Positions 2,574 through 6,615 of a DNA stretch of 60,438 nt are shown here, piece after piece. The notes under the pieces were generated by a model. The model was given only the letters and a program-made list of their open reading frames with translations, was not told the origin of the DNA and did no database searches. This DNA is from Acidimicrobiia bacterium (GTDB lineage Bacteria > Actinomycetota > Acidimicrobiia > IMCC26256 > JAMXLJ01), in assembly GCA_024281095.1 (NCBI GenBank), contig JAMXLJ010000158.1, positions 1 to 60,438 of the forward strand, given 5' to 3'. Position numbers and translations under genes: made by a program. Every line of letters starts with the position of its first letter. The first letter of the stretch is position 1.

Positions 2574-3700
2574 CCGACCGTCGGATCCGCGTCTTGCTGC
2601 TCTACGGCGGCCGGTCGGCCGAGCACGACGTGTCGCGCGTCAGCGCGGTCGCGGCGGCGAAGGCGCTCGACCCGACACGTTACGAAGTCGTGCCCGTGGG
2701 AATCACCCGTGATGGGCGCTGGCTCGTCGGCGGATCGGCGCAGCGGGCGATCGAGGCGGGGCCCGAGGCGCTGCCGGTCGCGTTCGAGGTCGGCGGCGAC
2801 GAGGTCGCGCCGGCACGGATCGGCGAGCCATCTCCCAGCGGGCCGACGACAGGGTTCGGCGACGTCGACGTCGTGTTGCCGCTCATCCACGGCCCGTACG
2901 GAGAGGACGGCACCGTCCAGGGGATGCTCGAGCTCGCGGGCGTCCCGTATGTCGGGTCCGGCGTGGTGGGCTCCGCGGTCGGGATGGACAAGATCATGAT
3001 GAAGCGCGCGTTCGTGGCGTGCGGCCTGCCGATCGCGCGCCACGTCGAGCTGCGCGACTCGCGCCGCGGCCCGGAGCTCGTCGCCCGCATCGAGCGCGAG
3101 CTCGGGTACCCGTGCTTCGTCAAGCCGGCCAACATGGGCTCGTCGGTCGGTGTGTCGAAGGCGCACGACCGCGGCGGGCTGGAGGCTGCGATCGAGCTCG
3201 CGCTCGCGTACGACGAATGGGCCCTCGCGGAGGAGGCGGTCGACGGGCGCGAGATCGAGGTCGGCGTGCTCGGCGACGACCCGGCCGAGGCGTCGGAGCC
3301 GGGCGAAGTCGTACCCGGCGACGAGTTCTACAGCTACGCCGACAAGTACGAGCGTGATGCCGCGGAGCTGCGCGCGCCCGCGCCGCTCACCGACGAGCAG
3401 CGCGCGCAGGTGCGGGCATTGGCAGTGCGCGCCTTCGACGCGTGCCGTTGTGAGGCCATGGCGCGGGTCGACTTCTTCCTCGAAGAGCGCGGACGCGAGG
3501 GCGGGGCGGGTCGCGGGTTCCTCGTCAACGAGGTGAACACGATCCCCGGGTTCACGCCGATCTCGATGTTCCCGCGACTGTGGGCACTGTCGGGCGTGCC
3601 GTACCCGAACCTGCTCGATCGACTCGTGGCGCTGGCGTTCGAGCGGCACGCCCGACGGGCGCGCCGAGCCGGCCGGCAGCGCCCGGAGCTCGAGGGATAA
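2570..3700 (+). CDS. ddl: D-alanine--D-alanine ligase
   Basis: A 376-residue ATP-grasp enzyme that joins two D-alanines to make the peptidoglycan precursor dipeptide in the cytoplasm. Family features are the N-terminal LLYGGRSAEHDVS, the HGPYGEDGTVQGMLE segment with GVPYVGSGV, the ATP-grasp lysine in PCFVKPANMGSSVGVSK, and the C-terminal metal-binding segment RVDFFLEE...FLVNEVNTIPGFTPISMFP. ATG 2570 overlaps the preceding stop by 4 nt; the frame is open further upstream but only as a shadow of the membrane gene. A short acidic insertion (GDDPAEASEPGE) precedes the YSYADKY motif. The position next to a membrane gene rather than murF is unremarkable. Confidence 0.95.
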   Translation: MTDRRIRVLLLYGGRSAEHDVSRVSAVAAAKALDPTRYEVVPVGITRDGRWLVGGSAQRAIEAGPEALPVAFEVGGDEVAPARIGEPSPSGPTTGFGDVDVVLPLIHGPYGEDGTVQGMLELAGVPYVGSGVVGSAVGMDKIMMKRAFVACGLPIARHVELRDSRRGPELVARIERELGYPCFVKPANMGSSVGVSKAHDRGGLEAAIELALAYDEWALAEEAVDGREIEVGVLGDDPAEASEPGEVVPGDEFYSYADKYERDAAELRAPAPLTDEQRAQVRALAVRAFDACRCEAMARVDFFLEERGREGGAGRGFLVNEVNTIPGFTPISMFPRLWALSGVPYPNLLDRLVALAFERHARRARRAGRQRPELEG

Positions 3701-4033: not shown

Positions 4034-5845
4034 TCAGCGCGCGTCGAGGCGGGTCTTCAGCTCGACGAGCTCCTCGCGCAGCGGTTCGGGGAATTTGGCG
4101 CCGAACGACTCGAAATGCTGCTCCAGCAGGGGCAGCTGATCGCGCCACTCGTCCGCGTCGACCTCGAGCGCGGCGGCGACGTCGGCCTCCGACACGTCGA
4201 GGCCACTGAGGTCGAGGTCGCTCACCCGTGGCACCATTCCGATCGGCGTCTGGGCCGCGCCCGCGTCTTCGGTGATGCGGCCGAAGATCCACGCCAGCAC
4301 GCGTGAGTTCTCGCCATAGCCGGGCCAGAGGAACTTTCCGTCGGCGTCGCGACGGAACCAGTTGACCCCGTAGATGCGCGGCAGCTTCGACGCGTCGGTG
4401 CGCTCCGTCATCGAGAGCCAGTGCCTGAAGTAGTCGGCCATGTGGTAGCCGCAGAACGGCAGCATCGCGAAGGGGTCGAAGCGAAGCTCGCCGACCTTTC
4501 CGAACGCCGCCGCGGTGCGCTCCGAGCCCATGGATGCGCCGATGAACACGCCGTGACGCCAGTCGCGGGACTCGAACACGAGGGGCACGGTGCCGGCTCG
4601 GCGGCCGCCGAAGAGGATCGCCGAGATCGGCACGCCCTTCGGGTCTTCCCACTCCGGCGCGATCACCGGGCACTGCCCGGCAGGGGAGCAGAAGCGGGAG
4701 TTCGGGTGCGCAGCGGGAGTGTCGCGCTCGGGCGTCCACTCGGCGCGCCGCCAGTCGGTGCAGTGTGCGGGCGGCGCGTCGGTCATGCCCTCCCACCACA
4801 CGTCGAGATCGTCGGTGAGCGCAGTGTTCGTGAACACCGTGTGGGAACGAACGCCCAACATCGCGTTCGGGTTGGTCTTCATGTTGGTGCCCGGAGCGAC
4901 ACCGAAGAACCCGTATTCCGGGTTGATCGCGTAGAGCCGGCCGTCGTCGCCGAACTTCATCCACGTGATGTCGTCGCCGATCGTCTCGACCTTCCAGCCC
5001 GGAAGCGTCGGCACCATCATCGCGAGGTTGGTCTTGCCACACGCCGACGGGAACGCGGCGGCCAGGTATCGCGAGACGCCCTCGGGGTTCGTGAGCTTGA
5101 GGATGAGCATGTGCTCGGCGAGCCAGCCCTCGTCGCGCGCGATCACCGAAGCGATTCGCAGCGCGAAGCACTTCTTGCCGAGCAGCGCGTTGCCGCCGTA
5201 GCCCGAGCCGTACGACCAGATCTCGCGTGTCTCCGGGAAGTGCACGATGTACTTCTCGTCGGGATTGCACGGCCAGGTGACATCTTGCTCGCCGGGCGCG
5301 AGCGGCGCGCCGACCGAGTGCAGGCAGGGGACGAAGTCGCCGTCGTCGCCGAGCACGTCGAGCGCGGCCTGCCCCATGCGCGTCATCGTGCGCATGCTCA
5401 CGACGACGTACGGCGAGTCGGTGATCTCGACACCGATATAGGACAGGGGCGAGCCGAGCGGGCCCATGCTGAACGGCACGACGTACAGGGTGCGGCCGCG
5501 CATCGAGCCGCGGAAGAGGCTCGTGAGCCTGTCGCGCATCTCGTCGGGCGCGACCCAGTTGTTGGTCGGCCCCGCATCGGACTGGCGCTCGGAGCAGATG
5601 AACGTACGGTCCTCGACGCGCGCGACGTCGCTCGGGTCGGACGCGGCCCAGTAGGAGTTGGGACGCTTCACCGGGTCGAGCTCGACGAATGTTCCCGCCT
5701 GGACGAGTTCGTCGCACAGACGCTCGTACTCTTGTGCCGAGCCGTCGCACCAGTACACCGACTCCGGCTCGCACAGCGCCGCAATCTCGTCGACCCACCG
5801 CAGGAGCTTCCGGTTCCCGGTGGTCACGTTGCTGGCGACGCTCAC
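4034..5845 (-). CDS. pckG: phosphoenolpyruvate carboxykinase (GTP)
   Basis: Converts oxaloacetate plus GTP to phosphoenolpyruvate and CO2, the entry to gluconeogenesis. The nucleotide loop [12 protein letters not shown] lies near residue 265 with the active-site cysteine of GTP-type enzymes, followed by [21 protein letters not shown] and [22 protein letters not shown] and the [17 protein letters not shown] segment are also typical. I start at GTG 5845, preceded 6 nt away by AAAGGAG, giving 603 residues, close to the mycobacterial enzyme. An in-frame GTG at 5887 is possible but its GGAGG directly touches the codon. It is transcribed alone, toward the RAM-domain gene. Confidence 0.95.
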
Positions 5846-5927
5846 GACCCGCTCCTTTGCGTTGACCCACACACGCTCGGTCGCCACCCTCCGTGCAAGC
5901 CGGCGCGCGGTTTCGGGGGATCAGATC

Positions 5928-5958
5928 AGTGTACGGCGCGTCAGAAACGCCTACTCAA
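5928..5958 (-). promoter_or_regulatory. candidate promoter of pckG
   Basis: Read on the minus strand, TTGAGT (5958-5953) and TACACT (5933-5928) are separated by 19 nt, about 80 nt upstream of the chosen pckG start. The -10 match is good and the spacing is slightly long. Confidence 0.45.
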
Positions 5959-5996
5959 GCCGGAGCACAACTCGTCGCGTTCTGGTACATGGAGGG

Positions 5997-6096
5997 GGAT
6001 GCCCGGGAGGGCGCGGCGAGGGAGTCGTGTGATGTGCGGACGGAGCTGCGCCCTGGGCGGATGCCCGGGAGGGCGCGGCGAGGGAGCGGTGTGATG
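5997..6096 (+). repeat. 62-nt tandem repeat carrying a ribosome-binding site and ATG
   Basis: GGATGCCCGGGAGGGCGCGG starts at 5997 and again at 6059, a 62-nt period; the match runs through GCGAGGGAG to GTGTGATG with only a few changes. Each copy ends in an ATG: 6032 in copy one, and 6094, the start of the next gene, in copy two. The spacer of copy one, GCGGACGGAGCTGCGCCCTG, resembles the repeat at 1-125 (GCGGACGGAGCGGAGCTCTG), so both loci belong to one family. Confidence 0.85.
6032..6094 (+). CDS. possible 20-codon upstream ORF inside the repeat
   Basis: ATG 6032 opens a 20-residue frame with three cysteines that ends in TGA at 6092-6094, overlapping the ATG of the next gene by one base (TGATG). 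GCGAGGGAG precedes it at a suitable distance. It may only be a by-product of the duplication, but if translated it would couple to the downstream gene. Confidence 0.25.
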   Translation: MCGRSCALGGCPGGRGEGAV

Positions 6097-6369
6097 GGCG
6101 TGCTGGCGTGGATCGTGGTGGGCTTCGTCGCCGGCGTGCTGGCGAAGGCGGTGACCGGCGTGCGGGGGTCGGGCTGCGTCACGACGGTGCTCATCGGCAT
6201 CGTCGGGGCGCTCGTCGGCGGGGTGCTCTTCCGGGCCGCCGGCGAGCGCGGGCTCACCGGGTTCAGCTGGCGGTCCGTCTTCGTGGCGACCGTCGGGTCT
6301 GTCGTGCTGCTGCTCGCCTATGCGGCCCTCACGGGGCGGGGTCGGGGCCGGCGGGACCGCCGACACTGA
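6094..6369 (+). CDS. GlsB/YeaQ/YmgE-type (transglycosylase-associated) membrane protein
   Basis: A 91-residue protein with three predicted helices: residues about 3-20, 28-46 (CVTTVLIGIVGALVGGVLF) and 62-82, ending in a basic tail (RGRGRRDRRH). The GILAW/GxxAG start and the Gly-rich middle helix IVGALVGGVLF are typical of the small GlsB/YeaQ/YmgE family, whose members are often stress-induced and whose biochemical role is not settled. ATG 6094 lies after GCGAGGGAG in the second repeat copy; GTG 6091 is an alternative. It converges with the cold-shock-like gene 18 nt away. Confidence 0.75.
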   Translation: MGVLAWIVVGFVAGVLAKAVTGVRGSGCVTTVLIGIVGALVGGVLFRAAGERGLTGFSWRSVFVATVGSVVLLLAYAALTGRGRGRRDRRH

Positions 6370-6387
6370 CCGCGACGGTGAGCGGCG

Positions 6388-6615
6388 TCAGACGCGGGCG
6401 GTCGGCAGGCCCATGTCGATCTCCGAACCGAGCTGGATCGACGTGGCGCGACCGTCGGCGTCGAGGCGGAAGGTGACCCGCTGACCCTGGCGCAGTGTGC
6501 GCATGATCGAGTTCGCGAGAGCGTCTGCCGCGAGGACGAACTCGGCCTTGTCGGTGTCACGGATGACCGCGCCCTCACGGGTGAGCGGGTCGAAGGAACG
6601 AATCACGCCCTGCAT
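6388..6615 (-). CDS. small cold-shock-like OB-fold protein
   Basis: A 75-residue protein that begins GVIRSFDPLTREGAVIRD, which resembles the first strands of the cold-shock domain (G.I..FDP..G.G.I). A later strand, RVTFRLDADGRATSIQL, fits the end of an OB fold. The aromatic RNP1/RNP2 motifs are weak, so nucleic-acid binding is uncertain. It starts 6 nt after the rpmB stop and is probably cotranscribed with it, a reasonable place for a ribosome- or RNA-associated factor. Confidence 0.6.
   Translation of the reverse strand: MQGVIRSFDPLTREGAVIRDTDKAEFVLAADALANSIMRTLRQGQRVTFRLDADGRATSIQLGSEIDMGLPTARV

Follow-up and report, generated by a model that had tools for sequence, protein, structure and literature searches.

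Introduction

Mycobacterial interspersed repetitive units (MIRUs) are dispersed and tandem repeats of 40-100 bp (PMC12548453, PMC2734929), which a review from 2025, citing Supply et al. 1997, describes as apparently mobile units that are inserted at start codons and contain an internal open reading frame (ORF) coupled to the downstream gene at -4 nt (PMC12548453). Tandem repeats immediately upstream of the start codons of unrelated genes were also described for Beggiatoaceae, namely the TAACTGA direct repeats, with which canonical ribosome-binding sites were reported to be rare (PMC4679880). Here we analysed a stretch of 60,438 nucleotides from an Acidimicrobiia bacterium (contig JAMXLJ010000158.1 of assembly GCA_024281095.1), in the following called the window, in which two tandem repeat loci, at 1-131 and 5997-6096, end at the start codons of two genes. 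We call the repeat a MIRU-like, structured mobile element, as it closely resembles MIRUs in behaviour and not in sequence. Taking all parts together, we consider it likely that these repeats represent a family of small (60-68 bp) mobile elements without a mobility enzyme of their own, which often insert at start codons, are bridged by coupled reinitiation of translation and are moved by an enzyme supplied in trans. The unit is too short to encode such an enzyme itself. MIRUs are said to have been described originally as targeting DTGA sites and as carrying DTGA at both edges. We know of no answer to the question of how MIRUs move.

Results and discussion

The type of repeat found at 1-131 is referred to as class A and the hairpin-bearing type at 5997-6096 as class B. 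A tandem duplication with 62-nt spacing before a membrane protein gene, as stated in the original prediction for this DNA, is borne out (direct copies at 5994-6038 and 6056-6100, 91% identity); the other locus consists of direct copies at 1-57 and 69-125 with 68-nt spacing and 96% identity. Tandem Repeats Finder, run on the window, detected neither of the tandem loci (1-125, 5994-6100). The observation is confirmed, with a repeat that is larger and bounded otherwise than first described. What had been taken for a spacer, GCGGACGGAGCTGCGCC, makes up the left half of the second unit, which is full-length (covariance-model match at 6034-6090), and this half is missing from the first copy. The second locus contains a single full unit, 6034-6096, while the copy 5' of it (5994-6031) is 5'-truncated. 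The suggested likeness between the two loci, 6 kb apart, holds for both unit ends (GTGCGGACGGAGC ... G(C)GAGGGAGC) but not for the middles, and in the same way class A and class B as a whole have the ends GTGCGGACGGAGC and GCGGAGGGAGCCATGA in common but not the middle.

Used as queries against the draft genome from which the window derives (4.39 Mb), both loci each matched about 40 other places, which places them in one dispersed, often tandem repeat class as had been supposed. Because of these matches (the best ones with E = 2e-37 and 5.5e-26 in a genome of ~70% G+C) and because the hairpin pairs described below covary far above shuffles, a similarity arising from G+A-rich composition alone is ruled out. 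Altogether the genome contains ~80 units of 60-68 nt, ~60 of them belonging to the hairpin class B and 20 to class A; the covariance model gave 64 matches, 3 of which are class A units, and the class A search gave 20. Units identical in sequence occur at different places, and in the subtypes of class B both ends vary together (ACGGAGC with GCGGAGGGAG, ACGCAGC with GCGAGGGAG and ACGAAGC with GCCCGAGGGAG). According to the covariance model, the class B family is present in 14 of 58 genomes of the order, with 0-69 copies per genome, at least ten in eight genomes and none in most. Class A was absent from the 57 other genomes of the order and therefore probably expanded after the split from the genus-mate G001. 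In a sample of 246 genomes of the phylum, searched with strict filters, only the window's own genome had matches at E <= 1e-5, and when named genomes outside the window's own lineage were searched with a 21-nt core pattern, the five matches were scattered and chance-like. The hairpin core had no match in viral contigs, which argues against phage-borne spread.

The class B fold, derived from an alignment of 47 units from five genomes, comprises a 10-bp stem, a GGG bulge, a 4-bp stem and a GGAN loop. Paired cells amount to 93% in comparison to 79% in shuffles, changes on both sides were found in 11 of the 14 pairs, and 71 cells with double changes compare with 15 in shuffles; the support for pairing vanishes when the partners are slid by 1-3 columns. 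Concerning the strand of the structure, wobble pairs were 16 GU vs 7 AC, which are small numbers. Units of other families have an extra outer helix (GAC/GTC, GAT/ATC, GGC/GCC), and for class A no fold above shuffles was obtained. No Rfam family matched at the gathering score, and the single match was at chance level (E = 4.1). Strong covariation, the place just upstream of start codons and the Shine-Dalgarno sequence beside the hairpin could also be expected from a cis-regulatory RNA, i.e. a structured leader that is bound by a protein or metabolite and controls a downstream regulon. However, the downstream genes are unrelated (argB, cydB, P450, PNP, an antibiotic biosynthesis monooxygenase (ABM) gene and a PF04226 gene), orthologues without the element exist, tandem copies come with target duplications, many hairpin copies in relatives lie away from gene starts, and class A lacks a significant fold, so that we regard regulation of this kind as very unlikely. 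Since the hairpin is kept in copies away from gene starts, we think that its role is mobility rather than regulation.

Elements of the REP/BIME type, which are moved by a RAYT (a Y1 transposase of the IS200/IS605 kind), are likewise short, hairpin-bearing, dispersed and clustered in tandem. The transposase family PF01797 was absent from every carrier genome, as far as the PF01797 profile can see, whereas E. coli, searched in the same way, has it. Moreover, Y1 transposases are not expected to make target duplications, but such duplications are present and significant in five sets of loci, and placement at start codons with a Shine-Dalgarno sequence is a further difference from REP elements. Mobilisation by a RAYT is therefore extremely improbable.

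The target duplications are evident from the flanks: in each of the five sets of loci, taken from three genomes, the two flanks of a locus match each other better than flanks paired by permutation (P 0.0055 to <0.0005). Where a class A or B locus is bordered by DTGA on both sides, the next five bases gave 64 matches in total, 45 being expected. In tandem loci the duplications comprise ~8-10 nt; in tandem loci of G001, GTGTCATAGT occurs three times around the units, or repeats similar to CTGAGAGGA are found. At two loci (G000:C41:18737-18794 and G000:C11:38840-38897), the unit lies between two copies of 5' coding sequence from the gene itself; these copies of 31-34 nt are much longer than the duplications found elsewhere, and the new gene start deviates from the original one in its first bases. 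Duplications of ~8-10 nt around a tiny unit with lineage-specific expansion would fit an ordinary miniature inverted-repeat transposable element (MITE), the internally deleted remnant of a DDE insertion sequence making 8-10 bp target duplications, and MITEs are small and non-autonomous as well. The units are nevertheless a poor fit to a standard MITE because terminal inverted repeats are missing: the left end is GTGCGGACGGAGC, the reverse complement of the right end is TGGCTCCCTCCGC, and an inverted-repeat search at 5700-6400 found none. In contrast to MITEs, the units also have a conserved internal hairpin that covaries, which deletion remnants need not do, and an end that supplies a translation start; considering in addition the two loci with duplications of 31-34 nt, we judge a MITE origin to be unlikely.

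Sites without the element were found by comparison with one genus-mate, G001, at 73-90% identity. Its orthologues of argB, kdpE, cydB, an acyltransferase gene, a thiolase-like gene at C59, ybeY, the ABM gene of the window and others lack the unit (argB, cydB and ABM were named by family search; kdpE, acyltransferase, thiolase-like and ybeY were read from the sequence). At argB, the window's own genome has the arrangement CGCACGTCATGAGCGCC, unit, ATGAGCATGACGTCG, and G001 has CGGACGTCGTGACGTCG. Upstream of a phosphoglycerate-mutase-like gene, G001 (C15 near 103756) carries its own, different unit, and the window's genome also carries one. Tandem arrays, identical units at different places and the two long flanking duplications could be explained without any mobility by tandem duplication and gene conversion of a common leader, the copies being kept alike by recombination. 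The orthologous sites without the element, the range of 0-69 copies among related genomes and the short target duplications, which reached significance in all five sets, speak against this explanation, which we consider highly improbable. Because copy number varies across the order, target duplications occur and orthologues without the element exist, these features together with the dispersion of the units indicate mobility.

A same-strand gene begins at the right end of the unit in 14 of 18 class A loci and 11 of 24 class B loci, in comparison to 6-13% for random or intergenic controls, so that the anticipated enrichment at gene starts was found. For other subfamilies, in the window's own genome, G001 and G030, the corresponding numbers are 7/19, 10/26 and 12/22. 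Both edges of the unit are DTGA at 22 of 41 loci; in 20 of these 22 there is an ATG at the right edge, which agrees with the supposed contribution of the unit to translation initiation, and the left edge keeps A/G/TTG. As class A and B units end with GGAGGGAGCCA directly before TGA and the right edge is ATG, the unit supplies the Shine-Dalgarno sequence and the A of the ATG. Of 38 other genes of the window, few are preceded by GGAGG (1 to 6, depending on which of two rules was used to choose the start). At six loci the TGA within the left DTGA also terminates the upstream gene, and therefore the unit sits in an operon overlap. The downstream genes had been expected to be short, which is not necessarily the case: among the genes sampled with Pfam are the PF04226 and ABM genes of the window as well as genes for an amino acid kinase (argB), CydB, a P450 and a PNP-family protein at other places. 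That the repeat class installs ribosome-binding sites applies to two subfamilies; since the others sit at gene starts less often, it is probably not the purpose of the whole family. At G000:C21:28071-28257, another subfamily (GGAGATGAAGC..GGAATCGACC) forms a tandem array of three units, immediately followed downstream by a sequence that resembles a tRNA gene start.

In most full class A and B copies with DTGA edges, the left start codon opens a frame of 20-24 codons (mini-ORF), the stop of which is the TGA of the new ATGA, at position +60 (class A) or +57 (class B). In class A and B1, the ten arrays whose edges are of the start-codon type have periods of 68, 65 or 62, all of which are 2 modulo 3; arrays of other subfamilies have periods from 60 to 67 and follow no modulo-3 rule. 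Many units of the two classes sit in DTGA sequences at gene starts, where the left edge retains the old start codon and the unit end GGAGGGAGCCA completes a new ATG behind the Shine-Dalgarno sequence. Based on this arrangement in the sequence, we propose that ribosomes would initiate at the old start codon, read through the mini-ORF of 20-24 codons, stop at the TGA overlapping the new ATG and reinitiate there, aided by the built-in Shine-Dalgarno sequence. Because such coupled reinitiation would keep the gene expressed, insertion at a start codon would be tolerated and nearly harmless, and a gene hit by the unit probably stays readable. The enzyme supplied in trans may recognise the hairpin and/or the ends of the unit.

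Several points weigh against this proposal. The tandem periods are not independent events because unit length is inherited. The design is imperfect at both loci of the window, as the mini-ORF is fused to the gene at the first locus and the first copy is truncated at the second. Gene starts were taken from an ORF test and a codon-usage model on the locus flanks and not from annotation, and about half of the class B loci in the window's own genome, and more in relatives, are off the exact start codon. Several orthologue comparisons are complex with no clean cut, and the gene at the second locus (6094-6369) has no detectable orthologue in G001. A mobilising enzyme was not identified, PF01797 being absent from all carriers.

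The original prediction also stated that no named family of this kind is known, which overlooks the mycobacterial MIRUs with their insertion at start codons and coupled internal ORF (PMC12548453); start-codon insertion with preserved translation has thus already been described. MIRUs were the only close parallel in the open-access papers searched, so that one described in a subscription journal may have escaped notice. Like MIRUs, the present units of 60-68 nt are intergenic, dispersed and tandem, apparently mobile and located at start codons (14/18 and 11/24 loci, less so in other subfamilies). DTGA at both edges (22/41 loci) is reportedly a MIRU trait as well, and the predicted internal ORF would overlap the downstream start by 4 nt in most full DTGA-edged copies and by 1 nt at the second window locus. 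In contrast to MIRUs, they have a covarying hairpin, target duplications longer than DTGA and subfamilies that do not insert at start codons, and no mycobacterial link was seen for the order in which they occur. A 44-nt MIRU core obtained from published primers (PMC4745473) had no significant similarity to class A, class B or the G030 type (best of six P = 0.038, others 0.06-0.80). Because membership by sequence fails, we use the name MIRU-like and not MIRU. The TAACTGA repeats of Beggiatoaceae share the tandem arrangement right before start codons of unrelated genes, but the heptamer is structurally unlike the present units. A rather doubtful alternative, to which we give some limited weight, is a lineage of structured micro-elements spreading by an undescribed route, possibly via RNA, whose start-codon-homing subfamilies, able to rebuild a translation start at the target, evolved independently of mycobacterial MIRUs.

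A family that is unrelated to MIRUs in sequence and has structure, target duplications, empty sites and non-start subfamilies would suggest that this lifestyle evolved more than once. The MIRU-like family gives a comparative handle on the movement of such units, shows insertions altering start codons and Shine-Dalgarno sequences, and could help to correct the annotation of gene starts in the order.

All features at the two loci of the window are on the forward (+) strand. At the first locus, the contig begins inside the first tandem class A unit (1-60), one of ~20 class A copies in the genome, and the second unit (67-129) ends with GGAGGGAGCCAATG. One extra A (CCAATG) removes the overlap stop, and therefore the mini-ORF that opens with GTG (58-126, VSIVRTERSSAGRSRLERERREP) reads in frame into the gene at 127-444, which encodes an antibiotic biosynthesis monooxygenase domain (PF03992, by Pfam); the G001 orthologue without the element reads AGGTATGAGCGTCGTCAAG.

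At the second locus, the truncated class B unit (5994-6031) lacks the left end and the 5' hairpin arm, and the full copy (6034-6093, or 6034-6096 in its widest delimitation) contains the covariance-model match at 6034-6090 (68.1 bits, E = 8.8e-11). Its hairpin (6045-6079) has a 10-bp outer stem, a GGG bulge on the 3' side, a 4-bp inner stem GGGC/GCCC and the loop GGAU, and is followed by a Shine-Dalgarno-like GAGGGAG (6080-6086), seen in the sequence and brought by the unit. The direct repeat GTGTGATG flanks the unit on the left (6027-6034) and on the right (6089-6096), where it includes the gene start codon at 6094-6096. The mini-ORF (6032-6094, MCGRSCALGGCPGGRGEGAV) ends with the TGA at 6092-6094, which shares one base with this ATG (TGATG), and its own ATG likewise overlaps a TGA at 6030-6032. 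The downstream gene (6094-6369) encodes a membrane protein of 91 amino acids (PF04226, Transgly_assoc, by Pfam).

Near position 3510 of G000:C166 and in G001, a bcp-like peroxiredoxin gene downstream of a unit contains an in-frame TGA (DFTPG*TRQL), which is conserved in the genus-mate. A tRNA-Sec match above the Rfam cut-off was found in both the window's own genome and G001, and the protein is probably a selenocysteine peroxiredoxin.
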